NCBI GenBank assembly: GCA_020049415.1
Contig: JAIFKV010000192.1
Span: forward strand, 1-37,106
Source: Betaproteobacteria bacterium
GTDB taxonomy: Bacteria; Pseudomonadota; Gammaproteobacteria; Burkholderiales; Thiobacillaceae
Length of the DNA: 37,106 nt
Direction: 5' to 3'
Shown here in pieces: positions 4,423 through 35,918 of this stretch. Position 1 is the stretch's first letter. Every line of letters begins with the position of its first letter. The translations under genes and the position numbers were made by a program. Below the pieces are notes generated by a model. It saw only the letters and a list, made by a program, of their open reading frames with translations. It made no database searches and was not told the DNA's origin.

Positions 4423-4452
4423 AAAAAAGCCCGCCATGCGCGGGCTTTTTTT
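4423..4452. terminator. Bidirectional intrinsic terminator after ccmI
   Basis: GCCCGC (4429-4434) pairs with GCGGGC (4440-4445) around a 5-base loop. The stem is flanked by six A on the left (4423-4428) and seven T on the right (4446-4452), so it can stop transcription from both strands. It ends the ccm operon and faces the end of the minus-strand kinase gene, which stops at 4590. Confidence 0.92.
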
Positions 4453-4589
4453 ATATGGTCAAAACACACAGCGTTGCTGTCCCTGAACAAGAAAAGCCGT
4501 AACAGGATTGGGTCGGTGACACCTCGAAGTCCTGCTCCGGACGGGTTGGTGGTCGACCATTGCAGCCGTTTTCTACGCGATCAATCGTT

Positions 4590-5903
4590 TTAACCTGCCA
4601 CCATTGGCAGGCTGATCCAGGCGGCCAGGCCACCTTCCGGTCGGTTCTCCAGCCAGACTCGCCAGCCATTCGCCTGCGCCAGTTGGCGCACGATCGCCAG
4701 TCCCAGGCCGGTGCCGCCAGTTGCCGGGTTGCGCGAGGATTCAACCCGGTGGAATGGACGGAATACCGCTTCCAGTTGGTCTGCCGGGATGCCCGGCCCG
4801 CTGTCGAGTACGCCAATTCGGCAAACGCCTTCATTTGCTTCGACGCGCAGTTCTATGCCGCTTTTGCCGGCGTAGCGCTGGGCATTGGTCAAAAAATTGT
4901 CGAGCACGCGGCGCAGCGCTGCCGGTGCAAGTTGGAGTTGGAGCAACGGGGCGCGGACAGTGACTTGGGTTCCCATTTCGCGTGCCCGCTCAGCCAGTTC
5001 GTTCAGCAAAGCGGTTAGATCGACGGTGGTCGCGGCTTCCTGACCCAGGCCGCGCGCCAAGTTCAGCATATCCCGCACCAGGGTGTTCATTTCCTCGACA
5101 TCCTGATCCAGGCGAGCGATCCAGGCTGGGTCGGGGCGACGTTCCTGCATCTCCAGCGCCAGCCGCATGCGCGCCAGCGGTGTGCGCAAGTCGTGTGACA
5201 GCCCGGCCAGCAGGGTTGTGCGTGCATCAAGCAGGTCGCGCACCTGAATAACCAGCTGATTGAAACGATGGGCGAGTGCGGCAAGCTCGCGCGGGCCGGA
5301 TTCGGGCAGCATTTCGGGGGTTTCTCCACGTCCCAGCGCGGCGGCGGCCAAGTCGAATCGTTCGAGCGGCGCGACGGTGCGGCGGGCCAGCCACCAAGCC
5401 GCGACCCCGGCCAGGAGAAGGCCGGTGGCAAGCGTCAATATTCCCGCCAGTAAAGGCTGAGGGCCGACGCGATCATGCGAAAACCCCGCCCATAAAAGTC
5501 GCCCACCGCTGGGGATGCCGACCCAATGCCAGATTTCACCTGCGCGCGTCTCGCTCGACAGGGTCACGGCCATCCCGGCGCGCCGCGTCAATTCCGACTC
5601 GAACTTGCGTATATAGGGGCCGCCTTTGCTGGTCGCCGCTGCCCCAGCCGGTTTTTCGGCGGCGAGAAACAATCCATGTGCGGCCACCAGTTCGCGCTCG
5701 AACGCGGGTCGGGTTTCGGGCGGCAACTCGCTCCAGGTCTGGGCGGAGAGGACGATGAGTCCGGCCAGGTCACTGGCGGCACGGAGGGCCATCGGCAGCA
5801 TGAGAAAAAACACCACCGCCAGCGCCGCAAGAATCTCGAACAGCACAAACACCAAGCCTAGCCGGATCGCGTTTTGCTGGCTAAGGCTGAGGCCGCTGCG
5901 CAT
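4590..5903 (-). CDS. envZ: EnvZ-type membrane sensor histidine kinase
   Basis: This is an inner-membrane two-component kinase of 437 residues. A first membrane helix (about 16-40) and a second (about 151-173) bracket a periplasmic sensor segment of about 110 residues. A HAMP linker follows (about 174-228). The dimerisation domain has the EnvZ-like H-box SHDLRTPLARMR, with the phosphorylated His at 237. The ATPase domain shows the N-box DNFLTNAQRYA (N336, N340), G1 DSGPG (367-371) and G2 TGGTGLGL (395-402). It lies 6 bases downstream of the OmpR-type regulator on the same strand, so the two form one operon. The H-box and pairing favour EnvZ over generic kinases; the stimulus is not visible. 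Confidence 0.88.
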   Translation of the reverse strand: MRSGLSLSQQNAIRLGLVFVLFEILAALAVVFFLMLPMALRAASDLAGLIVLSAQTWSELPPETRPAFERELVAAHGLFLAAEKPAGAAATSKGGPYIRKFESELTRRAGMAVTLSSETRAGEIWHWVGIPSGGRLLWAGFSHDRVGPQPLLAGILTLATGLLLAGVAAWWLARRTVAPLERFDLAAAALGRGETPEMLPESGPRELAALAHRFNQLVIQVRDLLDARTTLLAGLSHDLRTPLARMRLALEMQERRPDPAWIARLDQDVEEMNTLVRDMLNLARGLGQEAATTVDLTALLNELAERAREMGTQVTVRAPLLQLQLAPAALRRVLDNFLTNAQRYAGKSGIELRVEANEGVCRIGVLDSGPGIPADQLEAVFRPFHRVESSRNPATGGTGLGLAIVRQLAQANGWRVWLENRPEGGLAAWISLPMVAG

Positions 5904-5909
5904 GGCGGA

Positions 5910-6638
5910 TCAGGATGCCGAGCCACGCGGGTTGAACAAATAGCCCTCGCCACGCACGGTGCGGATGTAGATCGGGTTGGCATGGTCGGGCTCGAGCTTG
6001 CGCCGCAGACGCGCCACCCGAATATCGATGGTGCGGTCGTTGGGGTCCCAGTCGTAGCCTTTCAGCTGATCCATCAGTATGTCGCGGGTCAACACTCGAT
6101 TGGGGCGTTCGGTAAATACTTTAAGCAGATCGAATTCTGCGCTGGAGAGACCCAGATCAATCTCGTCTCTCAGCAAACGTCGGGCCGCCAGGTCGAGATA
6201 GTAGGGACCGAAGCGGTATGCCTCTTGCGTTGATGCGGATGCCGTGCCGGGCGGGGTCTGTGAGCGCCTCAGCAGCGCCCGCAGTCGGGCGAGCAGTTCA
6301 CGCGGGCTGAAAGGCTTGGCCAGGTAATCGTCGGCGCCCATTTCGAGTCCCACCACCCGGTCGATCTCCTCACCGCGGGCGGAGAGGATCAGAACCGGGA
6401 TGGATGCCGCCGCGCCCGATTGCGCGCGCAAGGCGCGCGTCAGCGTCAGACCGTCTTCGCCGGGCAGCATCAGGTCCAGCACGATGGCGTCCGGCAAGGA
6501 TTGCGCAATGGCATCACGCATGCCAGCACCATCGCCAGCCAGATCGACGACAAAGCCGGTATCGGTCAAATAGGCGGAGAGCAACTCCCGCAAGGCGGGG
6601 TCGTCGTCCACCACTAATATGCGCACAGGAAGATTCAT
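5910..6638 (-). CDS. ompR: OmpR-family response regulator
   Basis: This DNA-binding response regulator has 242 residues. The receiver domain (about 5-120) has the acidic pocket D11-D13, phosphoacceptor D55 (AIVLDLMLPGEDG), S86 and K108. The C-terminal winged helix (about 140-236) carries the OmpR/PhoB pattern (LSSAEFDLL, RTIDIRVARLRRKLE, IRTVRGEGYLF). The RTIDI...RLRRKLE stretch and LPGEDGL resemble true OmpR. It is first in the operon with the EnvZ-type kinase. No convincing Shine-Dalgarno stands before the ATG. Targets cannot be read from this window; porin or envelope genes are the family expectation. Confidence 0.9.
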   Translation of the reverse strand: MNLPVRILVVDDDPALRELLSAYLTDTGFVVDLAGDGAGMRDAIAQSLPDAIVLDLMLPGEDGLTLTRALRAQSGAAASIPVLILSARGEEIDRVVGLEMGADDYLAKPFSPRELLARLRALLRRSQTPPGTASASTQEAYRFGPYYLDLAARRLLRDEIDLGLSSAEFDLLKVFTERPNRVLTRDILMDQLKGYDWDPNDRTIDIRVARLRRKLEPDHANPIYIRTVRGEGYLFNPRGSAS

Positions 6639-6770
6639 GCCAGCAGTGTAATCGTGGACCGAAGCGGACAGGCGGGCGGGCTACACGTTGATACAAAGCG
6701 ATACATGCCGCTACATGTCGGTAAAGGATTGGCCACACCGCAAGACCAGAATGCGCAGTATCGAAACCAA

Positions 6771-6831
6771 GGAGCCTGTCTGACTTTGGAATCGTCGGCT
6801 GAAAATCGACGACCAAAGTCCGACAGGCTCC
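6771..6831. repeat. 61 bp near-perfect hairpin, member of a small dispersed repeat
   Basis: GGAGCCTGTC-T-GACTTTGG (6771-6789) pairs with CCAAAGTC-C-GACAGGCTCC (6812-6831), with one mismatch. The interior TCGTCG/CGACGA continues the stem to a 9-base loop. The right arm recurs at 10364-10391 with few changes, and its tip CCGACAGGCTCC recurs at 16688-16699. The structure fits a mobile palindromic repeat or a mini-element end. It lies between the divergently read ompR gene and the small gene at 6858, so it could also affect either transcript. Confidence 0.7.
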
Positions 6832-6857
6832 CAGGCGAACTGACTGCTTAATCTGGA

Positions 6858-7199
6858 ATGATCATGCAAAGTGCAATTTTCCCCATCCTGTTCTGCGCCC
6901 TTCTTGCTCCCGCTCTGGCTGCGGCGGAAGGGGGAGAAGGCGCGCCGCGCCGGCCGCTCGATCTCTCCTTGCCGCGCGATTTTCGCCCCGATACCTGGAA
7001 CCCGCCAACCGCCGGAGCCGCTACTTCTCTGCCTGATATCGGCCAGCCGCCGATTGCTCATGCCGATCATTCACGGGGCGGCGGCGGGCGACGAAATGAT
7101 CTTCCTTACGGATCCGGTTTCGAGGCCCGGCAAAGCGGTGGCAGCAGCGGTAGCACCAGTGGCGGCGGGAATCGGCGAGGCGGGGGACGGGGACGCTGA
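6858..7199 (+). CDS. Small secreted Gly/Arg-rich protein, unknown function
   Basis: This 113-residue frame starts with a signal peptide (hydrophobic run to about residue 21, predicted cut near ALA-AAE). A proline-rich middle follows (PRDFRPDTWNPPT). The C-terminal third is low-complexity and rich in Gly, Ser and Arg (about 74-113). No domain is recognised. The start is uncertain: no good ribosome site precedes ATG 6858 or ATG 6864. The signal peptide argues for a real exported protein, while the low-complexity tail means chance coding cannot be excluded. Confidence 0.5.
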   Translation: MIMQSAIFPILFCALLAPALAAAEGGEGAPRRPLDLSLPRDFRPDTWNPPTAGAATSLPDIGQPPIAHADHSRGGGGRRNDLPYGSGFEARQSGGSSGSTSGGGNRRGGGRGR

Positions 7200-7231
7200 A
7201 GCTGAAATTCAAATATGGGCTTCAACTCTTT

Positions 7232-7390
7232 GCGACTGTCCATGAATAACCTGGGCAGTGATGGGTGTGCTGGTGGGATGCGGTGCAAGGCGCCGGTCGA
7301 GCAGCATGGTCATTCCCTTCAAGCGACCGGCAACGCAGTACCGCGCCCACCCGTGCAGCCAGAATGTCCTGGTTATTCATGGACAGTCGC
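7232..7390. mobile_element. MITE-like 159 bp palindromic element
   Basis: The outer 20 bases at 7232-7251 are the exact reverse complement of 7371-7390. The symmetry continues imperfectly inward (for example GGTGGG...CGGT matching ACCG...CCCACC) to a last matching block CCGGTCG at 7293-7299 against CGACCGG at 7324-7330. That makes two arms of about 67 bases around a 24-base centre. No reading frame of substance is inside. Terminal inverted repeats without a transposase are what a miniature inverted-repeat transposable element looks like. No clear target duplication is seen: the flanks are T-rich (CTCTTT on the left, seven T on the right). The T-run after the right arm could also let it act as a terminator. 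Confidence 0.65.
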
Positions 7391-7397
7391 TTTTTTT

Positions 7398-7429
7398 CTG
7401 CCACTTCTTGATCGACCATGAAGTGGCAG
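7398..7429. other. 10 bp stem-loop in the leader of the DUF2202 lipoprotein gene
   Basis: CTGCCACTTC (7398-7407) and GAAGTGGCAG (7420-7429) form a perfect 10-base stem with a 12-base loop, 43 bases before the start codon at 7473. It could be a leader regulatory hairpin or an operator. Its role is inferred from position only. Confidence 0.5.
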
Positions 7430-7472
7430 CCCAACTATTTACAACAACTTTTTAACCAGAAAAGAGAACCTC

Positions 7473-8822
7473 ATGAAACGAACACTCAGCAGACAGAATA
7501 TTTTATTGGCCGGCATGGTCAGCACCCTGCTCGCCGGTTGTGGCGGTGACGGTGGCGATGCCGCCACGCCGACGACCCCTGGCTTCGCCGCCACGGCAAC
7601 GGATATCACAGTCGAACGCGGCCCTCTGCTTGAGTCGACGCTCATCGACGCCAGTGGCAAACATGGCGCTCATCTCGGCAATGGCGTTTATCGCTTCAAT
7701 ATGCCGCCGACCTATCCGATCAGCAGTTTGGGCGGCTATATCGACCTCAACCGCAGCGGCGTTGTCGATACGGGTGACGTCAAGGCGGGAACGCTGACCC
7801 TCAAGAGCGGCCAGAGCGGGCTCGCCATCACACTTGGATCGACTCTTGCCAGCAACAGCACGTTGTTGGAAAGCCTTTTAGTGATGGGTTTTACCCAACA
7901 ACAACTGTTGAACAACACGCCCAGCCAAGACCGCATGATCGCCGCGCTCAGCGATGAACTCTACAAATACGCGGTGACACATCACATCAGCGACGTGGCA
8001 ACGCTCACCACCACGGAGTTGGCGAACCTGTCCAACGCCATTCAAGCGCGTATCAATGCTTACCAGAACATGACCACCGACACCGCCACGCTGGAGCGGC
8101 AACTCATCGCCGAGCTGAGCGGTTCGGTCGACATGGTCGATGCGGATGAGGCCGCGGCACTGGTCGGGGCAACTCCCGCCGAGTTGCTGGTCAGCAGCCT
8201 GCCCGCCAATGTGCTGACCGACGCGCAGAAAGAAACGCTAGCCTACATGTGGAACGAGGAAAAATTGGCCAAGGATGTCTACCTTGCGCTGAATGTCGTT
8301 CACCCCAGCTCACAGTTGTACAACATCGCCAACAATGCCGAAACGCAGCATGAAGCTGCGGTGCAGTCGTTGTTGGAGAAATACAACCTCAGCGTCTCGG
8401 ACGTACTCAATCCCGCAGCCAGTTATTCGGCCGAGACGCTGGCCGCGATTCCGGCCGGGCGCTACACCCTGCCGACGCTGCAAAATCTTTATGACACGCT
8501 CTACACAATGGGTATCGCCTCGGCGCAGGCCAGCCTGGAAGTCGGCTGTATGGTGGAAGTGACGGATGTTAACGACCTCGATCGCGACATCGCGCTGGTG
8601 AGCAACCTGGCGGATGTAAAAGCCGTCTTTGAAAACCTGCGCGCGGGAAGTTATAGCCATTACTGGGCCTTTGATGCCGGCCTGAAAAGCGCCGGTGTGA
8701 CAACCGGCTGTTGCAGTCTTGGCGCCGATTACTGTCATCCGGAATATCCCGTCACCAACGCGGGCTCCGGCGGTGGCAATGGGGCCGGAACGGGAAATCA
8801 ATTCGGCAGAAGGTCGTTGTGA
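7473..8822 (+). CDS. Lipoprotein with C-terminal DUF2202 ferritin-like domain
   Basis: This 449-residue protein has a lipoprotein signal (LLAGC, lipidated C23) followed by a Gly/Asp/Thr linker. Residues about 45-245 form a middle region without a recognised domain. Residues about 250-427 match the DUF2202 pattern: YMWNEEKLAKDVY with E262/E263, NNAETQHEAAV with E290 and H293, VEVTDVNDLD, and SHYWAFD with H396. This ferritin-like four-helix arrangement of Glu and His suggests a metal-binding site, though the function of the family is not settled. A GAGAA ribosome site precedes the ATG. The first TIR-flanked element and a hairpin lie in its leader. It appears to be transcribed alone. Confidence 0.82.
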   Translation: MKRTLSRQNILLAGMVSTLLAGCGGDGGDAATPTTPGFAATATDITVERGPLLESTLIDASGKHGAHLGNGVYRFNMPPTYPISSLGGYIDLNRSGVVDTGDVKAGTLTLKSGQSGLAITLGSTLASNSTLLESLLVMGFTQQQLLNNTPSQDRMIAALSDELYKYAVTHHISDVATLTTTELANLSNAIQARINAYQNMTTDTATLERQLIAELSGSVDMVDADEAAALVGATPAELLVSSLPANVLTDAQKETLAYMWNEEKLAKDVYLALNVVHPSSQLYNIANNAETQHEAAVQSLLEKYNLSVSDVLNPAASYSAETLAAIPAGRYTLPTLQNLYDTLYTMGIASAQASLEVGCMVEVTDVNDLDRDIALVSNLADVKAVFENLRAGSYSHYWAFDAGLKSAGVTTGCCSLGADYCHPEYPVTNAGSGGGNGAGTGNQFGRRSL

Positions 8823-8965
8823 GGTGAAGTTTTAACCTTGAATCTGCTGCTGTCCGTTTCACCGCCTTCGATGTCGCTCACCAATTGGGTGACCCCATAC
8901 TCGGACGCGGTTAACAAAGGTTTCAAGGATGATTGGTATACCGCGCCTGATGGTCGAGGAGAAGT

Positions 8966-9007
8966 CGTAGGGCGGAAAAGCGGCTTTATCGCGCCTTCCG
9001 CCGTATG
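8966..9007. repeat. REP-type palindromic repeat
   Basis: The sequence starts CGTAGGGCGGAAAAGCG and ends GCGCCTTCCGCCGTATG. The same words occur in the larger palindrome at 28227-28311, so it belongs to the same dispersed repeat family. It sits in the 225-base gap between two gene ends (8822 and 9048), the usual place for REP elements. The gap also holds a 12-base palindrome, CGGTTCGAACCG, at 9032-9043. Confidence 0.75.
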
Positions 9008-9047
9008 CCTGGTCTCCGCGCAAAACGACATCGGTTCGAACCGGCCG

Positions 9048-10310
9048 CTACATTTCGAAGTGCTGCCGTATGCGTTCTTCGAGAAGTTGCCGAGAGTCGG
9101 CTTCGCTGCTGTTGTTCAGGCGCTTGAAGATCTCCCCTGCCATCGGCCGAAACACCGCCATCACGGCGGGATCGAAATGGCTGCCAGTGTCGCCGTCCAG
9201 AATCGCCATGCTGGCTTCAAATGACATCGGTTCCTTGTATGGGCGTTTCGAGCATAGGGCGTCGAATACATCGGCGATGGCGAAAATTCGGGCCGCCAAG
9301 GGTATCGCCTCGCCGGCCAGGCCGCGTGGATAGCCGCTTCCATTCCATTTCTCATGATGCGCGGCGACAACGGCTTGCGCGCCGTCGAGCCAACCCATGC
9401 CGGTGACGATTTCCTCGCCTTGTTGGACATGGGTGCGCATGGTGGACATTTCCTCGGCGTCCAGTTTGCCGGGCTTCAGCAGGATGGCATCGGGAATGCC
9501 GATCTTGCCGACATCATGCAGAAAGCTGCCTGCAATCAGCGCCTGCATCTCGGAGCCTGACAGTTGCAGGTGCTCGGCGATACGCGCCGCTATCCAGGCG
9601 ACGCGGTAATTATGTGCGCCGGTATCGGAATCGCGCTTGGCGATGGCGCGGCCGAGCGATTCCATCATCGAGATATGGGAATCGAGCACCTCGCGCGCCT
9701 TGCGCTCGTTATCGTTCGACAAGTGCACTACCACTGGATAGATTGCCGCGCCACAAAGCAGGGCGGCGAGACTGACCATCAATGCCGTGGTCAAGGCGCT
9801 GGACATTATTTCCCCCCGCTGCCAGGCGGAAACGACACGTACCCCTTCGAAATAGCCGGTGATCGGTCCGTTGGTGTCGGTTTCGGAAATGTGCAACGGG
9901 ACAAAGACGCGCAGAACCCAGCGGTCATCCGGCAGTCGCAGACTTTCATAAGTGGCGGAGGAATAGGTTGGCCGGCCATGTTTCGGCAGGGACGATTCCA
10001 GCAGTGCGCCTGCGTGCGTCATCGATTCGGCAAGCTTGCGCCCCTGGGCGTCATAAATCTCCGCGATATCGAACAAGCCGCCAGCAATGGTTTTCGCGGC
10101 GGCTGCGGCATGCTCGGCGGCCATCGTGCCGGAAAGATCGAGCGCATCGTAATGGTGCAACAGGCGTCCAGATTCCTCCATGGCCAGCGCAACGATGCTT
10201 TTTTCTGCCCGTTCCCGGGCAATGAACCATGACACAGGGCTGGTCAGGGAGGCCAGAACAATGCTGACAGCGGCGATGCGAAGCGCGGTACGTTTCTGAA
10301 AAAAGTTCAT
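9048..10310 (-). CDS. Membrane HD-GYP domain protein, probable cyclic-di-GMP phosphodiesterase
   Basis: This 420-residue protein has an N-terminal helix (about 10-30), a periplasmic segment of about 140 residues, a second helix (about 172-197) and a cytoplasmic HD-GYP domain (about 208-400). Catalytic features are intact: H233, the HD pair H265-D266 (FLHDVGKIGIPD), HHE at 318-320, and GYP at 326-328 followed by RGLAGEAIPLAARI. Such proteins hydrolyse cyclic-di-GMP to pGpG or GMP and lower biofilm signalling. The periplasmic part is a sensor of unknown ligand. It is a single-gene unit; a half-copy of the dispersed repeat lies in its upstream region. Confidence 0.9.
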   Translation of the reverse strand: MNFFQKRTALRIAAVSIVLASLTSPVSWFIARERAEKSIVALAMEESGRLLHHYDALDLSGTMAAEHAAAAAKTIAGGLFDIAEIYDAQGRKLAESMTHAGALLESSLPKHGRPTYSSATYESLRLPDDRWVLRVFVPLHISETDTNGPITGYFEGVRVVSAWQRGEIMSSALTTALMVSLAALLCGAAIYPVVVHLSNDNERKAREVLDSHISMMESLGRAIAKRDSDTGAHNYRVAWIAARIAEHLQLSGSEMQALIAGSFLHDVGKIGIPDAILLKPGKLDAEEMSTMRTHVQQGEEIVTGMGWLDGAQAVVAAHHEKWNGSGYPRGLAGEAIPLAARIFAIADVFDALCSKRPYKEPMSFEASMAILDGDTGSHFDPAVMAVFRPMAGEIFKRLNNSSEADSRQLLEERIRQHFEM

Positions 10311-10363
10311 CGTTTTTTCTGTTCAAGTGGTTGCCGCCAAAGTCTGGCGGATACCATTTTGCT

Positions 10364-10391
10364 ATCGAAGATCAAAGTCCGACAGCGCTCC
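10364..10391. repeat. Half-copy of the dispersed hairpin repeat
   Basis: This stretch matches the right arm of the 6771-6831 hairpin (ATCGAxGAxCAAAGTCCGACAG then GCTCC) with two substitutions and one inserted C. The left arm is absent here. It lies at the junction between the HD-GYP gene's upstream region and a block of gene remnants, so it may mark an old rearrangement end. A small CCGCCA/TGGCGG hairpin is at 10334-10350. Confidence 0.6.
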
Positions 10392-10525
10392 TAGCGCATT
10401 TCGAATGCCTCCTGATAAAAGCGATAGTTGCCGCGCCATGATTGTTGCAGGTCGGTTTGCAGATTTTTGGCCAGACCTAGCGGGCCGCAGAACCATACTT
10501 CGGTTGGGCCTGGATGTGGGCTACC
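10391..10525 (-). pseudogene. C-terminal fragment of a flavin/ferric reductase-like protein
   Basis: Read on the minus strand, the last 44 codons before the stop at 10391 encode a stretch with GPTEVWFCGPLGLAK and the ending FYQEAFEMR. The x-VWFCGP-x-G motif and terminal F-H/Y-QE-x-FEMR are typical of the NAD(P)H-binding end of ferric reductase-like and NADPH-oxidase-like membrane flavoproteins. Upstream in the same frame there is no flavodoxin-reductase or membrane sequence, only antisense of other remnants. It is thus a severed 3' end. It is the reductase-side relic of a module that also left PepSY and two-component traces next to it. Confidence 0.6.
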
Positions 10526-10549
10526 GGCACTGATGCTGGCGGCGCTCAA

Positions 10550-10780
10550 AAGTTGAAGGCGGGAGAGGTGCTGCCCCTGCGAACGATTCTGTAGCGCATC
10601 GAACGCGAATAGCCCGGCCAGATCATGGAAGTCGAACTTGAGGCCGAGGACGGCCGCTGGCTCTACGAGATCAAACTGCTTCGGGCCGATGGCGCACTGA
10701 TCAAACTGAAAATCGATGCCCGCGATGGTCGCCAGCTTGGCCAGAAGGTCAGGGGCAAAGTTAGCCAGGAGGCCCGCTGA
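10550..10780 (+). pseudogene. PepSY-domain protein remnant with two in-frame stops
   Basis: One frame reads KLKAGEVLPLRTIL, stop, RIERE, stop, then PGQIMEVELEAEDGRWLYEI and on through a clean PepSY pattern (KLLRADG, LIKLKIDARDGRQLG) to a stop at 10778. The stops are TAG at 10592-10594 and TAG at 10610-10612. Both sit where a PepSY protein should be continuous (I-L-x-RIERE-x-PG). The 5' end with signal peptide is missing. PepSY proteins of this short type commonly sit beside two-component genes, and a response-regulator start overlaps the stop here by the usual ATGA. The gene is clearly decayed. Confidence 0.75.
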
Positions 10781-10948
10781 TGTGCATCCTTCTGGTTGAA
10801 GACGAGCCGACGCTCGCCGCTGAAACCGGTCATCGATGGCTTGGCGCGCACCATGCTGCGGCTGCATGCCGAGCGGAATATGGAATTGTTTATCCACCCA
10901 ATACCGCCAGCGCTGGCTGTGGTTTGCCGCTTCATGCGCAGGTGCTGA
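10780..10948 (+). pseudogene. Response regulator start fused by deletion to a sensor kinase fragment
   Basis: From ATG 10780 the frame reads MCILLVEDEPTLA, the first strand and acidic pocket of an OmpR-type regulator, and then leaves the family pattern. Immediately after, in another frame from 10820, comes LKPVIDGLARTMLRLHAERN followed by MELFIHPIPPALAV and a stop at 10946. This resembles the segment between the H-box and N-box of PhoQ/QseC-type kinases (LLDGL-x-R-x-LxRLHAER). A deletion therefore removed most of the regulator and the front of the kinase, joining the two genes. The kinase ATPase domain is also gone. Confidence 0.65.
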
Positions 10949-11104
10949 TTGCGGTGGTTTGAAGCTCGGTTTGGAACCTATCACGGCGGGCGCGGTAAAA
11001 TATCCAAAAAAACAATACGGCTGCAAACAATTACGCTTGGCCTGGCTGATAACGCCAAGGCTGTTTCACTTTCCCCCTTATTGCATCCAGGAGATATTTT
11101 TCCA

Positions 11105-11545
11105 ATGAAAAAGTCTGTTCAAGTTCTTGCTATCGCTTCTTTATCTATTGCCGGTTTCGCTTCCGCTTCCTGTGTGCATGTTCCGGAAGCCAATCTGCGC
11201 AAGGGGCCCGGCACCCAGCACGAGCAAACCTGGGAAGTTTACAAATACATGCCGTTGAAGCAGCTTGGCCGGACTGGCGACTGGTACAAGGTCGAGGATG
11301 TGGACGGCGACACTCACTGGATCTTCCGCAACCTGCTGACCGACAAGATCAAATGCGCGGTAGTGAAGGCAAACATCGCCAACGTCCGCAGCGGCCCCGG
11401 CACCAGCCATGGCAAGACCCCGCTTGATCAGGTGGAGAAGTATTACGCGTTCAAGGTGATTGGCGTCGAAGGAGATTGGGTGCAGGTTATCGATGAGGTG
11501 GATAACACCGGTTGGCTGCACAGCAAACTGCTCTGGCAGAATTGA
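11105..11545 (+). CDS. Secreted protein with two bacterial SH3 domains
   Basis: This 146-residue exported protein has a signal peptide at about 1-22 (cut near ASA-SC). Two SH3b repeats follow: about 24-78, with EANLRKGPGT and GDWYKVEDVDGDTHWI; and about 82-143, with ANVRSGPGTSHGK and GDWVQVIDEVDNTGWLHS. SH3b domains usually bind cell-wall peptides or glycans in the periplasm, and this stand-alone pair resembles YgiM/YraI-type proteins of unknown exact role. The start at 11105 is chosen because AGGAG lies about 10 bases upstream and the signal peptide begins there; a longer frame from 10949 has no such support. A terminator follows directly. Confidence 0.88.
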   Translation: MKKSVQVLAIASLSIAGFASASCVHVPEANLRKGPGTQHEQTWEVYKYMPLKQLGRTGDWYKVEDVDGDTHWIFRNLLTDKIKCAVVKANIANVRSGPGTSHGKTPLDQVEKYYAFKVIGVEGDWVQVIDEVDNTGWLHSKLLWQN

Positions 11546-29032: not shown

Positions 29033-29122
29033 CGTAGGGTGCAATAAGCGCAGCGCATTGCACCATTCCAGGTGCGGCACATAAACATCCGGAGCAATGC
29101 CCTTCGGTTATTGCGCCCTACG
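29033..29122. repeat. REP palindrome, first copy, in the caspase gene leader
   Basis: CGTAGGGTGCAATAAGCGCA at the left and TTATTGCGCCCTACG at the right give an imperfect inverted repeat with inner words GCATTGCACC and GCAATGCCC. A near-identical copy lies at 32724-32809, in the same position relative to the second caspase gene. Confidence 0.85.
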
Positions 29123-29251
29123 AAGCTACGTTCCTTTGTAGGCTGTGCCGAGCAACGTGAACCGCATCAACCGCAGCGCACCCCACCCCAAACAGGTAAA
29201 ACTCAGGCGACAATCCGGCAACCCAACACCACCAAATTCCAGGGATACCCC
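29123..29251 (+). promoter_or_regulatory. Leader of the first WD40-caspase gene, duplicated at 32810-32963
   Basis: The stretch from the REP element to the start codon is conserved between the two caspase genes, including AAGCTACGT, CTTTGTAGGCTG, GAACCGCATCAA and the last part ACTCAGGCGACAATCCGGCA with CCAGGGATACCC. The AGGGA is the ribosome site 6-7 bases before the ATG. The promoter itself is not identifiable by eye. Conservation of the leader shows that regulation was duplicated with the gene. Confidence 0.55.
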
Positions 29252-32158
29252 ATGCACCGCTTTGCCTGCCTCTGCCCGCACCGCATGTTCGCCGCCCTGT
29301 TCGTCCCCCTGCTGAGTCTGCTGGCCTGTCTGTCCGGCTTTGCCGCTTTAGCTGGCGAGCCACCCACCGCACCGATGTTGCGCATCGACCCCGGCGAGCA
29401 CACTGCCACGATCAAGCGCATCGCCACTGACGCCGCCGGGCGCTGGCTGGTCACCGCTTCGGATGACAAGAACGCGCGGGTGTGGGACTTGGCTAATGGC
29501 AAGTTGCTGACCACGCTGCGCCCGCCGATCGGGGCGGGCGACGAGGGCAAGCTGTATGCGGTGGCAATATCGCCGGATGGGCGGACGGTGGCGGTGGGCG
29601 GGTGGTTACAAGTTGGCGAAAGCGGTACATCTATCCTCTTGTTCGACCGCGCTAGCGGCCGCCTGCTGCGCCGCATCACCGGTTTGTCCAATGTAATCTT
29701 CCATCTCGCCTACGCTCCCGATGGCCGCAGCCTCGCCGCGACATTGGGTGGCAACAACGGGCTGCGCCTGTTCGACGTCGCCGATGGCCGTTTGCTTGGC
29801 GAAGACCGCGACTATGGCGACTCCAGTTTCAGCGTTCATTTCCGCCCGGATGGCCGCCGCCTGGTCACCACCAGTTGGGACGGTCAGGTGCGTTTGTATC
29901 GCTGGGAACACCATCGTTTGCAATTGCTGGCCAAGCAAGCCGCCCCGGGTGGCCAGCAGCCCTATGACGCCCGCTACTCACCGGATGGTCGGCGCATTGC
30001 CATGGGTTTTTCTGACACCGCCGCCGTCAACGTGCTGGATAGCGAGGATTTGAGTTTGCGTTATGCTCCAGACACGGCGGGGGTGAACGGCAGCTTGGGG
30101 TGCGTCGCCTGGTCGCACGACGCCAACGCGCTGTTTGCGGCGGGCAAGGCGAACAAGAATGCTCAGCACTTTATCCGCCGCTGGACGATAGACGACAACC
30201 AAGCCGGTCGCCCGCTCGACTGGCCGGTGGCGAGCAACATAATCATGAATCTGGTGCCCCTGCCCGCTGGCCGGCTGGCCTTAGCCAGCGGCGTGCCTGA
30301 ATGGGGCGTAGTGACCGCCTCGGGTCAGCGAGCGCTGTTCCACGCCACAGCGGTGGCGGATTTTCGGGACAACCACAAAGGCTTCACACTCTCCCACGAC
30401 GCCACCCAGGTGCACTTTGCTTATGAACCCTGGGGCAAATCCCCAGCCGTGTTTGACAGCCAGGCCCGCGCCTTCCTCGCTGTCACCAGTGCTGGCCTGA
30501 GTGCGCCGCGCCTGAGCGCTCCCGGCCTGGAAGTCAGCGACTGGAAAAACACCACTGCACCCAAACTCAACGGCCAGCCGCTACAACTGGAGCCATTCGA
30601 AAGATCTCGCAGCCTGGCGCTGTTCCCGGACGACAGGGGCTTCGTCCTGGGAACCGAATGGCTTTTGCGCGCCTTCGACCGCACCGGCCGTGAAACCGGG
30701 CAGCAACCCGTACCTGGCGTCGTTTGTGCCGTCAACGTCTCCCGCGACGGCCGCTGGGTGGTGGCGGCTTATGGTGACGGCACCATCCGCTGGCATCGCG
30801 CCTCGGATGGTGTCGAGCAGGTGGCGTTCTATCCGCATCCAGACAAGAAGCGCTGGGTGTTGTGGACGCCTTCCGGCTATTACGACGCCAGCCCTGGCGC
30901 GGAGGATTTGATCGGCTGGCATGTCAACAACGGCAAGGACGCGGCGGCGGACTTCTACCCGGCCGGCCGCTTCCGTGACCGCTTCTATCGCCCGGATGTG
31001 CTGGCCCGGGTAGTGCAGGCGCAGGACGAGGCGGAGGCGCTGCGTCTGGCCAACGCTGAATCCAGCCGTCGAACCCAGCAGGCCCGCATCATTGACGTGT
31101 TGCCACCGGTGGTCAGCCTGTTGTCGCATCAGGACGGCGACCGCTTCGAGACCAGCAAGCAGGTGCTGCGCTTCAGCGTGCGCAGCCCGGCCGATGCGCC
31201 GTACACCGGCATCAAGGTGCTGGTGGATGGCCGGCCGCTGGAACTGCAACGCGGCTTGAAGCCAGCGCGTGTGGAGGGCGAGCAGCGTCTGGAAATCATC
31301 CTGCCGGAACGCGATCTGGAGTTGTCGCTGATCGCCGAGAACAAGAACGGCGCCAGCGTTGCTGTCCGCGCGCGGCTGCTGTTTGCCGGGCGCAAGACGC
31401 AGGAATTCGTCGCCAAGCCGCGTTTGTATGTGCTCGCCGTGGGGGTGTCGGATTACGCCGACAAGGCGCTGAAACTGGCCTACGCCGCCAAGGACGCGCA
31501 GGACTTCGCCGCAGCGTTCAAGCAACAGTCGGCCTTGTACAAGGATGTGATCACCCAGGTGCTGCCTAACGCCAGCGCGGAACAGGTGCTGGATGGCCTG
31601 GACTGGCTGCGCAGCCAGGTCACCGCCAAGGATGTCGGCGTGCTGTTCCTGGCAGGTCATGGGGTGAACGACGCCGACGGTGATTATTACTTCTTGCCGC
31701 AAGACGCCAACCCGGATCGCCTGCGCCGCACCGCCGTGCCCTACTTCGAGGTGAAAAAGACCCTGTCCAGCCTGCCCGGCAAGACGCTGGCGTTCATCGA
31801 CACCTGCCACTCCGGCAACATCTTGGGCAGCAGCACGCAAATTCGCCGTGGCGTGGCCGACATTACTGCGGTGATCAACGACCTCACCGCAGCCGAAAAC
31901 GGCGTGGTGGTGTTTGCGTCTTCCACCGGCCGCCAGTTCTCGCTGGAAAACAGCGAATGGAACAACGGCGCATTCACCAAGGCGCTGGTCGAAGGGTTTG
32001 CCGGCAAGGCGGATTACACCCTGGACGGCGCGGTCACCATCAACGAACTCGACACCTGGCTGGCCGACCGCGTCAAACAACTCACCCACAACCAGCAAAC
32101 CCCCACCACCACCAAACCCAGTACGGTGCAGGATTTCCCGGTGGCGGTGGTGAAGTGA
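29252..32158 (+). CDS. Exported WD40-repeat caspase family protease (orthocaspase), copy 1
   Basis: This 968-residue protein has an N-terminal signal (hydrophobic about 12-33; cut near ALA-GE, or a lipobox-like LLAC at 23-26). A beta-propeller of about nine WD40-like blades follows (about 45-530, for example WLVTASDDKNARVWDL), then GWHVNNGKD, a linker with coiled-coil character (about 585-610), an Ig-like segment (about 615-712) and a C14 caspase domain (about 722-940). The catalytic pair is H803 (LFLAGHGVND) and C852 (FIDTCHSGN). The 29252 start has AGGGA upstream and begins the signal peptide; 60 earlier in-frame codons are REP sequence. Such proteases cut after basic residues in related proteins. 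The propeller probably binds partners in the periplasm. Confidence 0.9.
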   Translation: MHRFACLCPHRMFAALFVPLLSLLACLSGFAALAGEPPTAPMLRIDPGEHTATIKRIATDAAGRWLVTASDDKNARVWDLANGKLLTTLRPPIGAGDEGKLYAVAISPDGRTVAVGGWLQVGESGTSILLFDRASGRLLRRITGLSNVIFHLAYAPDGRSLAATLGGNNGLRLFDVADGRLLGEDRDYGDSSFSVHFRPDGRRLVTTSWDGQVRLYRWEHHRLQLLAKQAAPGGQQPYDARYSPDGRRIAMGFSDTAAVNVLDSEDLSLRYAPDTAGVNGSLGCVAWSHDANALFAAGKANKNAQHFIRRWTIDDNQAGRPLDWPVASNIIMNLVPLPAGRLALASGVPEWGVVTASGQRALFHATAVADFRDNHKGFTLSHDATQVHFAYEPWGKSPAVFDSQARAFLAVTSAGLSAPRLSAPGLEVSDWKNTTAPKLNGQPLQLEPFERSRSLALFPDDRGFVLGTEWLLRAFDRTGRETGQQPVPGVVCAVNVSRDGRWVVAAYGDGTIRWHRASDGVEQVAFYPHPDKKRWVLWTPSGYYDASPGAEDLIGWHVNNGKDAAADFYPAGRFRDRFYRPDVLARVVQAQDEAEALRLANAESSRRTQQARIIDVLPPVVSLLSHQDGDRFETSKQVLRFSVRSPADAPYTGIKVLVDGRPLELQRGLKPARVEGEQRLEIILPERDLELSLIAENKNGASVAVRARLLFAGRKTQEFVAKPRLYVLAVGVSDYADKALKLAYAAKDAQDFAAAFKQQSALYKDVITQVLPNASAEQVLDGLDWLRSQVTAKDVGVLFLAGHGVNDADGDYYFLPQDANPDRLRRTAVPYFEVKKTLSSLPGKTLAFIDTCHSGNILGSSTQIRRGVADITAVINDLTAAENGVVVFASSTGRQFSLENSEWNNGAFTKALVEGFAGKADYTLDGAVTINELDTWLADRVKQLTHNQQTPTTTKPSTVQDFPVAVVK

Positions 32159-32963: not shown

Positions 32964-35918
32964 ATGCACCGCTTTGCCTGCCTCCGCCCGCACCGGCTGT
33001 TCGTCTCCCTGCTAACTCTGCTGGCCTGTCTGTCCGGCTTTGCCGCCTTGGCTGGCGAACCGCCCACCGCCCCGATATTGCGCATCGACCCCGGCGAGCA
33101 CACCGCCATGATCCGCAGCATCGCCACTGACGCCGCCGGGCGCTGGCTGGTCACCGCTTCGGATGACAAGACCGCGCGAGTGTGGGATCTGAAGGACGGG
33201 CGACTTATCAGCACCCTGCGCCCGCCGCTGGGCGCGGGCAATGAGGGCAAGCTGTATGCGGTGGCGACGAGCCCGGCGGGGGAGACGGTGGCGTTGGGGG
33301 GGTGGACGCAGTGGAATAATGGTTCCACTTACAACGCAATCGATGGTTACAACATCTATCTCTTCGACCGCGCCAGCGGCCGCCTGCTGCGCCGCATCAC
33401 CGGTCTGCCCAATGTCATCCTCCACCTCGCCTTCTCCCCCGATGGCCGCCACCTGGCCGCCACCTTGGGTGTCAACAACGGCCTGCGCCTGTTCGACGTG
33501 GCCGATGGCCGTCTGCTGGCGGAAGACCGCGACTATGGCGCGGATAGCTACAGCGTCCATTTCCGCCCGGATGGCCAGCACCTGGTCACCACCAGTTGGG
33601 ACGGCCAGGTGCGGCTGTACCGCTGGGCGGGCCAGCGCCTGCAACGGCTGGCAAGCGAATCGGCCCCCGGCGGCAAGCGCCCCTTTGCCGCCCGCTACGC
33701 GCCGGATGGCCAGCGCATTGCTGTGGGGTTTGATGACACTGCCGCCGTCAACGTGCTGGATGGCGATGACTTGCGCCTGCTGGCTGCGCCCGAGACGAGG
33801 GACGTGAACGACATTCTGGGTTATGGACTTGCCTGGTCTCGCGACGGCCGGGCGCTGTTTGCGGCGGGGCGGGCGCGGCAGAACGGCCAGCACTTCATCC
33901 GCCGCTGGGCCATCCATAACAACGCAGACCCCGCCGCCCCGCAAGACTGGCCGGTGGCCAAAGAGACGATCATGGACCTGACCCCCCTGCCCGATGGCCG
34001 CCTGGTCTTTGGTGGCGCTGGACCCAACTGGGGCGTGGTGACGGCCACGGGCCAGCGCGTGCTGTTCCACGCCCCGGCGGTGGCAGATTTTCGGGACAAC
34101 CATGAAGGCTTTACCCTCGCCTACGACGCCGCCCAGGTGCGCTTTGGCTACGAACAGTGGGGCAAATCCCCCGCCGGGTTCGACAGCGCCAGCCGCCGCC
34201 TGAGTACGGAAATGAGCGCCGACCCGGCGGCCCTGAGCACCGCCTCCCTATCGCCCCCCACGCTCACCGCCCCCGGCCTGGACATCAGCGGCTGGAAATA
34301 CACCACCACCCCCCGCCTCAACGGCCAGCCGTTGCAGCTGGATCAATACGAAACCTCCCGCAGCTTGGCGCTGTTCCCCCAGGGTGCGGCCGAGCGGGCC
34401 GCCTTCGTGCTGGGCACGGATTGGTCTCTGCGCGCCTTTGACCGCAACGGCACGCAAGTCTGGCAACAGCCCGTGCCCGGCGTCGTCTGGGCGGTCAACG
34501 TCTCCGGCGATTGCCGCTGGGTGGTGGCGGCTTATGGCGACGGCACGATCCGCTGGCACCGCGCCACGGACGGTGTGGAGCAGATGGCTTTTTATCCGCA
34601 CCCGGACAAGAAACGCTGGGTGTTGTGGACACCGAATGGCTATTTCGATGCCAGCCCCGGCGCGGAGGATTTGATTGGTTGGCATGTCAACCAGGGCAAG
34701 GATAAGGAAGGTCGTTTCGTCACCGGCGGCCAGTTGTACAGTGCGCTGTACCGGCCTGATCTGATCCAGCGCGTGGTCAGCGGCGAAGATGCCGCCAACT
34801 TGCCGCCGGTGGATTTGACCCGGCTGCTGGCCAGTGGCGATGCGCCGAAAGTCCAGTTCACCGCGCCCTCGGCAGGCGGTTTAGTGAGCCGCGACGTCAC
34901 ACTGAAATATCGGGTCTGCGATGCCGGCGGCGGCATCGGCAAGCGGGTGCTGCGCCTGAACGGCATCACCATCGCGCTGGCCGAAGGCGACCGTGGCTTG
35001 AAGCGCAAAGGCGGCGCGCAAGCGCAGGACTGTCTGGACGAGGAACGCCTGATCTCGCTGCAACCGGGCGACAACGCCATCGTCGTTACCGCCTTCAACA
35101 AAACCGGCGAGATTGAATCCTTGCCGGTGGAACTGAAGTTGACGCTCAAGGGCGGGCCGGCCGGGGGCAAGCCGACGCTGCATGTGCTGACCTTGGCCAT
35201 CGATAAATACCGCGACGGCGACTTGCGCCTGACTTATCCGAAGAAGGATGCTGATGGCCTGGTGAAACATCTCAAAGCCGTCAGCGGAACACTGTTCCGC
35301 GAGGTCAAGGTGCATACACTGGTTGACGATAGCGTGCGGCGCGGCCAGATCGGCGCGGCGTTCGACACACTGGCGGCGACGGTGCAACCGGAAGATGTCT
35401 TTGTGCTCTACCTGGCCGGCCACGGTGTCACCGACCGGGAAGACGGCAACTATTACTTCCTGCCGGTCGACTTCCGTTACACCGACGACAAGGCAGTGCG
35501 CCAGCAAGCGCTGTCCAACGCCTTCTTCCAGGAAAACCTGGCCAAGGTGCGCGCCGGCAAATCGCTGGTGCTGCTGGATACCTGCAACAGCGGCAGCTTC
35601 CAGGCGGTGAAAACGCGCGGCATCGAAGAAAAAACTGCGATGGCGCGTCTGGTCAAAGCCACCGGCCGCGCCACCCTGATGGCGTCCTCCAGCGCACAAG
35701 TCGCGCTGGAAGGCTATCAAGGCCACGGCGTCTTCACCTGGGCGCTGATCGAAGGCCTGAAAGGCAAGGCCGCCGGCCGCGACAAGCAGATCACCGTCGG
35801 CAGCCTGGCCGATTTTGTCAGCGAGACTTTGCCGGAACTGACCTACAAACAGTTCGGTTACGAACAGGTGCCGCAGCGCGAATTGCAGGGGATGAATTTC
35901 CCGATCGGGGTGCGATAG
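32964..35918 (+). CDS. Exported WD40-repeat caspase family protease (orthocaspase), copy 2
   Basis: This 984-residue paralogue of the upstream caspase protein has a nearly matching signal (cut near ALA-GE) and propeller (about 42-560, with the same ASDDKTARVWDL, GLRLFDVADGRLL and PDKKRWVLWTP motifs). After GWHVNQGKD (about 580) similarity ends. A different linker (about 585-735, with two cysteines, C652 and C690) and a different C14 domain (about 737-975) follow. The catalytic pair is H820 (LYLAGHGVTD) and C874 in LLDTCNSGS, where the usual His after Cys is Asn. ATG 32964 has AGGGATACCC upstream. A remnant of the copy-1 type C-terminus lies just after the stop. Confidence 0.9.
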   Translation: MHRFACLRPHRLFVSLLTLLACLSGFAALAGEPPTAPILRIDPGEHTAMIRSIATDAAGRWLVTASDDKTARVWDLKDGRLISTLRPPLGAGNEGKLYAVATSPAGETVALGGWTQWNNGSTYNAIDGYNIYLFDRASGRLLRRITGLPNVILHLAFSPDGRHLAATLGVNNGLRLFDVADGRLLAEDRDYGADSYSVHFRPDGQHLVTTSWDGQVRLYRWAGQRLQRLASESAPGGKRPFAARYAPDGQRIAVGFDDTAAVNVLDGDDLRLLAAPETRDVNDILGYGLAWSRDGRALFAAGRARQNGQHFIRRWAIHNNADPAAPQDWPVAKETIMDLTPLPDGRLVFGGAGPNWGVVTATGQRVLFHAPAVADFRDNHEGFTLAYDAAQVRFGYEQWGKSPAGFDSASRRLSTEMSADPAALSTASLSPPTLTAPGLDISGWKYTTTPRLNGQPLQLDQYETSRSLALFPQGAAERAAFVLGTDWSLRAFDRNGTQVWQQPVPGVVWAVNVSGDCRWVVAAYGDGTIRWHRATDGVEQMAFYPHPDKKRWVLWTPNGYFDASPGAEDLIGWHVNQGKDKEGRFVTGGQLYSALYRPDLIQRVVSGEDAANLPPVDLTRLLASGDAPKVQFTAPSAGGLVSRDVTLKYRVCDAGGGIGKRVLRLNGITIALAEGDRGLKRKGGAQAQDCLDEERLISLQPGDNAIVVTAFNKTGEIESLPVELKLTLKGGPAGGKPTLHVLTLAIDKYRDGDLRLTYPKKDADGLVKHLKAVSGTLFREVKVHTLVDDSVRRGQIGAAFDTLAATVQPEDVFVLYLAGHGVTDREDGNYYFLPVDFRYTDDKAVRQQALSNAFFQENLAKVRAGKSLVLLDTCNSGSFQAVKTRGIEEKTAMARLVKATGRATLMASSSAQVALEGYQGHGVFTWALIEGLKGKAAGRDKQITVGSLADFVSETLPELTYKQFGYEQVPQRELQGMNFPIGVR

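Follow-up and report, generated by a model that had tools for sequence, protein, structure and literature searches.

The cytochrome SHP ('sphaeroides heme protein') binds O2 and is reduced by a second cytochrome, the diheme cytochrome DHC, and its gene is often accompanied by those for Orf1, a response regulator (RR) and the sensor kinase SK1 (Meyer, Kyndt and Cusanovich 2010, PMC2909971). The same paper cites a report that SHP oxidises NO to nitrate, and the reference list of PMC3820574 names an NO dioxygenase activity of a Rhodobacter sphaeroides haem protein. In the SHP operon of PMC2909971 the membrane partner is a formate-dehydrogenase-like cytochrome b, and for the Rhodospirillaceae the paper gives divergent regulatory and electron-transfer halves. 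Its text, figures apart, contains neither 'ferric reductase' nor any word starting 'flavo', and no flavocytochrome in an SHP operon was found in titles and abstract openings of the open-licence literature, which is weak evidence of absence.

We describe here a scar of about 530 bases, at 10391-10921 of a 37,106-nucleotide stretch of DNA (the window, contig G000:C217) that comes from a draft assembly of a member of the Thiobacillaceae (228 contigs, 84.2% complete, 2.11% contamination). The scar contains broken pieces of four genes and is flanked by an HD-GYP gene (9048-10310, minus strand) and an SH3b gene (11105-11545, plus strand). What decayed here is an SHP/Orf1-RR-SK1 operon, in a variant that has a ferric-reductase-type flavocytochrome (FRE) as membrane partner, and the interval is very probably what is left of a single divergent operon pair after decay. 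The scar per se is ordinary gene loss, and none of the original proteins is expected to work; its value is that it shows which operon went.

Intact relatives of this operon have SHP, DHC, a response regulator, a kinase with variants of the SK1 motifs and a PepSY protein in the place of Orf1, and they share with the PMC2909971 operon the divergent regulatory and electron-transfer halves given there for the Rhodospirillaceae. From its position and company we infer that Orf1 of that paper is the PepSY protein found here. The membrane partner differs, being a PF01794/PF08022 flavocytochrome of the FAD/NAD type, and in the window itself SHP and DHC have been lost and the other genes survive as fragments. 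The intact relatives resemble the ferric reductase/NADPH-oxidase superfamily (PF01794, PF08022) in their four conserved membrane histidines and FAD-binding region, but they are encoded with periplasmic-type cytochromes c, and in the window no more than the final ~54 codons survive.

Broken pieces of four genes

Custom profiles made from intact relatives (10 FRE, 10 PepSY, 9 RR and 7 sensor kinase, HK, sequences) were searched against 1099 translated segments of the window, including six read-through frames of 10200-11150, and larger profiles (86, 74, 72 and 65 sequences, respectively) were applied as well. The FRE, PepSY and kinase pieces score far above chance (E 1.3e-15, 1e-35 and 5.8e-11 with the smaller profiles), showing that the remnants proposed in an earlier sequence-only reading are real, and their order and strands agree with those of the intact module. 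The FRE and PepSY profiles have no further match in the window at E 0.05, and the RR and HK profiles additionally match its true regulators and kinases. Among the scar pieces Pfam by itself detects only PepSY; the ferric reductase NAD-binding and HisKA regions, which the earlier reading had also named as targets for profile searches, have no Pfam match and are reached with the custom profiles only. That reading had set the interval at 10391-10948; homology extends as far as 10921, and none was found in the last 27 bases (10922-10948).

The flavoreductase end that it proposed is present, with the correction that it lies on the minus strand. The piece (10391-10555) comprises the C-terminal ~54 codons of a ferric-reductase-type membrane flavocytochrome (10394-10555) and the stop codon TAG (10391-10393), and matches positions 392-445 of the 445 in the ten-protein profile (E 3.2e-14 with the 86-sequence profile). 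It shares 22 to 31 identities across 52-54 residues with the ten intact proteins, and the N-terminal ~390 codons are missing from the window. The 211-residue frame that holds the tail has no Pfam match, and so none to the ferric reductase NAD-binding family.

On the plus strand, 10547-10780 encodes the C-terminal part of the PepSY accessory protein (Orf1), with its stop codon TGA at 10778-10780. PF03413 matches at 10625-10777 (E 1.5e-6, 28.8 bits against a Pfam cut-off of 24), and the custom profile, with stops read as X, aligns its positions 44-114 of 123 at 10547-10759 (E 5.7e-35 with the 74-sequence profile). Two in-frame TAG nonsense codons interrupt the remnant at 10592-10594 and 10610-10612, exactly where they had been placed earlier, and nothing is left of its start, its signal peptide or the divergent promoter region. 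Because the FRE and PepSY pieces touch at 10547-10555 there is no room between them for DHC, which is absent from the scar; the SHP gene (DUF1924) is absent there too, and the genome's one DUF1924 match lies on a different contig. The sequence-only reading left the core of the module unnoticed, two cytochrome c genes (SHP/DUF1924 and DHC) that are wholly deleted.

Next on the plus strand come the first ~14-15 codons of an OmpR-type response regulator (10780-10824) and a piece of ~38 codons of an SK1-type sensor kinase from just before the ATPase domain (10808-10921), so that the order Orf1, RR, kinase is retained. The regulator ATG at 10780 overlaps the PepSY stop codon (TGATG), an overlap also present in 53 of the 60 intact modules with a locatable start, and 10 to 13 of 15 residues are identical to the nine intact regulators. 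The profile match of this stub (positions 1-17) is not significant (E 0.047 with nine sequences, 0.12 with 72), and its identity is supported mainly by position. The kinase piece matches 311-348 of the 456 profile positions (E 3.1e-9 when 65 sequences are used); Pfam finds no response regulator or HisKA match in either piece, and it likewise misses the HisKA region of the intact kinase of locus L011, whose ATPase domain spans 350-441. The region with the SK1 periplasmic motifs (SGVYWQ and RSRSLWD), variants of both of which are present in 64 of 65 intact kinases, is missing from the window kinase. A regulator start joined to a kinase middle had been described, and the pieces do lie there, the stub being placed by position; however, they are joined out of frame, and there is therefore no fusion protein.

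Two further candidates were set aside. For a kinase C-terminus beyond 10921 the best alignment is no better than those of shuffled sequences in any of the three frames (its score is equalled by 50, 50 and 100 of 100 shuffles). The kinase and regulator encoded at 4590-6638 are related to genes close to the module in genome G125, but these lie in the other orientation and beyond another gene, and this was treated as coincidence.

The intact module in relatives

Genome contigs were scanned with seven FRE proteins, and the best 80 of 122 loci were taken, some of them from the same genomes as those otherwise compared here (L129 is the G021 contig). Regulator matches at or below 55% identity and kinase matches at or below 150 bits were dropped before counting. 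In the intact layout the kinase, regulator and PepSY genes lie on one strand, and SHP, DHC, often PepSY_2, and FRE are divergent from them; all six genes are present in that order in 63 of the 80 loci, and these are mostly betaproteobacterial; Dechloromonas agitata (L150) is one laboratory organism with an intact module. Among the 80, Thiobacillus, Gallionellales, Rhodocyclaceae, Accumulibacter, Dechloromonas, Azonexus, Rhodoferax and others are represented, and a few loci come from records titled Gammaproteobacteria or Chromatiales. The intact module is present in L010 and L011. Its Pfam content is PF02518 (kinase), PF00072 and PF00486 (regulator), PF03413 (PepSY), PF09086 (SHP), PF09626 (DHC), PF13670 (PepSY_2), and PF01794 with PF08022 (FRE); the SHP of L011 matches PDB 1dw0 (E 2e-28) and DHC matches PDB 2fw5 (E 4.9e-33). 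This synteny bears out the earlier view that the pieces come from a single functional module, in which a membrane redox system is controlled by a two-component pair of its own.

In six of the 17 remaining loci (L140, L145, L160, L164, L169 and L186) less than 2.1 kb separates FRE from the contig end at which the locus starts. A further three (L181, L187 and L196) have SHP, DHC, PepSY_2 and FRE with the regulators unmatched; L174 and L193 are otherwise incomplete or rearranged; L147, L180 and L205 have FRE without any other query gene detected; and L197, L203 and L208 have the kinase, regulator, PepSY, PepSY_2 and FRE without a detected SHP or DHC, an arrangement that may be a variant with another electron acceptor. 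A b561 query from G027 matched additionally in three of the 80 loci, and more distant b561 genes could escape it.

All 86 FRE proteins, in which some genomes are counted twice, have four histidines in the membrane part spaced 14 and 13, which we take to be a NOX/FRE-like spacing. The motif used to find SHP allowed W/H/R/F/Y/L and N/D at the positions of a tryptophan and an asparagine beside the heme (W84 and N88 in PMC2909971), and Trp and Asn are present in all 72 of the motif-positive loci among the 80.

In a DNA search of 61 genomes, that of the window included, the scar is present once in its own assembly and the same scar is found in none of the relatives. Matches occur in six genomes, and two of these, G021 of the same genus and G027 of the same family, match strongly over the PepSY piece; a search of plasmids with the DNA of the whole interval gave one weak match only, to a PepSY gene. 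G021 additionally has a 32-base FRE match 2.4 kb away from its PepSY match, and a 23-base match elsewhere in that genome (G021:C140), in a region of unrelated genes, was judged to be chance. In G027, whose module includes PepSY_2, a 26-base match lies ~4 kb from the PepSY match; it is not the end of FRE itself but belongs to an additional FRE tail, which follows the FRE and b561 genes.

Isolated extra C-terminal tails of this kind lie 0.7-1 kb downstream of intact FRE in G027 (L011, 10665-10775) and G115 (L111, 9558-9698), 3' of the b561 gene and in modules that are otherwise intact. They occur in two of the 80 loci taken as the best of 122 (L136 and L130, the same genomes as the G027 and G115 cases), and represent either a partial duplication or an insertion scar. 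The window tail could descend from such an extra tail, in which case the first of its missing stretches would be longer.

Across 117 genomes of the family, FRE matches at E 1e-60 in 19: eleven, the query's own genome included, are nearly full-length at 68% identity or more, one is partial (95% over 132 residues), and seven have only a more distant FRE of 41-45% identity. The kinase matches at the same threshold in 11 of the 117, and G021 is the only member of the genus to match in either search. The genome of the window has no other FRE or SK1 kinase at E 1e-60; because it is 84.2% complete, another intact FRE-type copy could be missing from the assembly.

Genomic setting and loss of the module

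Two genus members with the same backbone, G018 and G002, have the cytochrome c maturation genes followed after ~230 bases by the SH3b, PfkB and lipoprotein genes, and the contig genes are 96% (CcmF) and 87% (PfkB) identical to theirs. In the window the same neighbours lie 6.7 kb apart (4452-11105). On the left the alignment passes a terminator-like hairpin and ends at 4452 (G002) or 4465 (G018); on the right the G018 alignment does not set in until 11105, where SH3b begins, and that of G002 is at best weak and lies elsewhere (10892-10925). The right border of the 6.7-kb stretch is therefore not fixed. The scar lies at the right end of this stretch, which is absent from G018 and G002 and may have been gained here or lost there. 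An HD-GYP query has no match in these regions of G018 and G002, and over most of its length its only match within the genus outside the window is in G014, at 40% identity. The intact synteny between the HD-GYP and SH3b genes that the earlier reading had looked to in relatives is thus not there: the genus members with this backbone have neither the module nor the HD-GYP gene at the site.

The scar agrees with two deletions inside the module and some further damage. Set against intact modules, it lacks ~2.3-2.9 kb with the front of FRE, DHC, SHP, the inter-divergent region and the PepSY start, and ~1.6 kb from codon ~14 of the regulator to codon ~311 of the kinase; no kinase end is found, and PepSY carries the two nonsense codons in addition. 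In motif-based measurements, from which modules without the motifs were left out, the FRE-to-PepSY stretch is 2336-3935 bases in 57 intact modules (median 2806, quartiles 2773-2937; 2336 in G021), and the regulator-to-kinase stretch is 1565-1670 bases in 30. Neighbouring homologies overlap at 10547-10555 and at 10808-10824, and each of these short intervals contains one of the two joints. Only 3 of 44 near-invariant positions are changed in the window (FRE 1/16, PepSY 1/16, RR 1/7, HK 0/5), and relaxed selection could not be read from them, as many changes being found in intact proteins (FRE 14/73, PepSY 17/64, RR 3/49, HK 55/55; not significant). The remnants are little eroded, and decay is thus shown by the missing stretches and stops rather than by substitutions.

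In the same genome an operon of the other kind remains. The one DUF1924 gene (G000:C192, 5412-5684) lies in a run of b561 (PF01292), SHP (PF09086) and DHC (PF09626), all open (L033, 4705-6238). This operon shares SHP and DHC with the module, and differs from the scar in its open frames and from the module in its cytochrome b561-type membrane partner; RR and HK queries have no match on its 13-kb contig. DUF1924 is present in 22 of the 23 genus genomes, and G021 carries both the FRE-type module and a b561-SHP-DHC run. The earlier proposal of a lost electron-transfer trait therefore holds in that the FRE-type module is gone, but since the genome still has one intact SHP operon, with a cytochrome b of the b561 type, 'lost trait' is too strong; SHP function is perhaps not lost. 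The need for the module may have relaxed because this second operon stays intact, although redundancy as the cause of loss is a guess, and G021 keeps both kinds.

The reading that the organism lost a capacity to reduce or take up ferric iron, served by a ferric reductase and a two-component system, draws on the membership of FRE in PF01794, 'Ferric reductase like transmembrane component', and on six of the 80 loci (best 80 of 122: L197, L203, L208, L147, L180 and L205) in which FRE is seen without detected SHP or DHC, so that FRE can have other partners. The PF01794 name, however, spans flavocytochromes with various acceptors, and the best NCBIfam matches of two FRE proteins, far below the cut-offs, are oxygenase electron-transfer subunits. 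FRE stands with SHP and DHC in the 63 complete loci of those 80. An ABC transporter beside the G021 module best matches phosphonate and polyamine NCBIfam types, all below curated cut-offs (254 bits for the ferric type, against a cut-off of 496), and its permease matched beside FRE in only one of the 80 best loci of 122, the G021 contig itself. The regulators, moreover, belong to the type that PMC2909971 calls SK1/Orf1 in its SHP operons. An iron trait, which had been offered earlier, is not supported by a module built around the oxygen-binding cytochrome SHP and DHC, and we regard it as quite improbable.

A draft of 228 contigs with 2.11% contamination might also hold a chimeric or misassembled contig that made the scar while the genome has an intact module. 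This would have to account for sequence missing in two separate places, a truncated gene and a pair of nonsense codons across four neighbouring genes, in a scar that occurs once only, in an assembly where no intact FRE or SK1 copy was found and on a contig with genus-typical genes such as CcmF and PfkB; it is very improbable. Still harder to credit is domestication of the remnant as a new small protein, from a 211-codon minus-strand frame (10391-11026) or from the 51-codon PepSY end at ATG 10625, even though both frames are open and the PepSY end still scores as PepSY. The 211-codon frame runs through all the remnants, has no Pfam hit, and shares its codon phase with the PepSY and kinase frames, so that it is interrupted there only opposite TTA, CTA and TCA. 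These codons are rare in GC-rich genes, and in L010 the intact PepSY gene is likewise overlain by an open antisense frame (1537-1971); we judge the 211-codon frame an antisense by-product and not a gene. The PepSY end lacks the N-terminal part that carries the signal peptide. The reading that we prefer is thus decay of a divergent SHP operon pair.

Other features of the window were recorded alongside. A genus-wide palindromic repeat with the core CAAAGTCCGACAGGCTCCY has two copies, at 6771-6831, where it forms a strong hairpin (-41.8 kcal/mol, z -8.65), and at 10364-10391, a half copy that touches the stop codon of the FRE remnant and whose folding is not unusual (z -1.4, -1.6). With one mismatch allowed it occurs 36 times in the genome of the window and 34 times in G021, and is present in 13 of 23 genus genomes; the reversed pattern has no match in the genome of the window and 0 to 2 in each of the others. 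When two copies form an inverted pair, they often lie 146 bases apart. Y1 transposases (PF01797) are encoded in 17 of the 23 genus genomes and absent from G021, which has the repeat, so there is no simple link between the two. A 26-nt inverted repeat (7232-7257/7365-7390; 92% complementary, 107 nt between the arms) lies upstream of a DUF2202 gene, and two adjacent genes (29072-32158 and 32964-35918) encode large proteins that both combine WD40 repeats with a caspase-like peptidase domain (PF00656).

Proposed working of the flavocytochrome-type operon

In the intact module, NAD(P)H would reduce the flavin of FRE, and two b hemes would pass electrons across the membrane to DHC and then to SHP in the periplasm, where SHP would bind O2 and act as an oxygenase or NO dioxygenase. 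Orf1 and SK1 would sense a periplasmic signal, and the regulator would switch on the divergent operon. The feeding of DHC by FRE is proposed from gene order only.

The relatives may thus carry an SHP operon of a widespread and apparently undescribed kind. In it an NADPH-oxidase-like flavocytochrome, instead of a quinol-linked cytochrome b, would drive electrons from cytoplasmic NAD(P)H via DHC to a periplasmic SHP, with Orf1-RR-SK1 as divergently encoded control. The product would be an oxygenase or NO dioxygenase of the periplasm that has a private reductase, sporadically present and lost in the Betaproteobacteria, and we give the proposal an even chance. The scar has led to a conserved module of six to seven genes with a membrane partner unlike that of the operons of PMC2909971. 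If the flavocytochrome feeds SHP, the donor would be NAD(P)H and not quinol, which would constrain the role of SHP that PMC2909971 left open.
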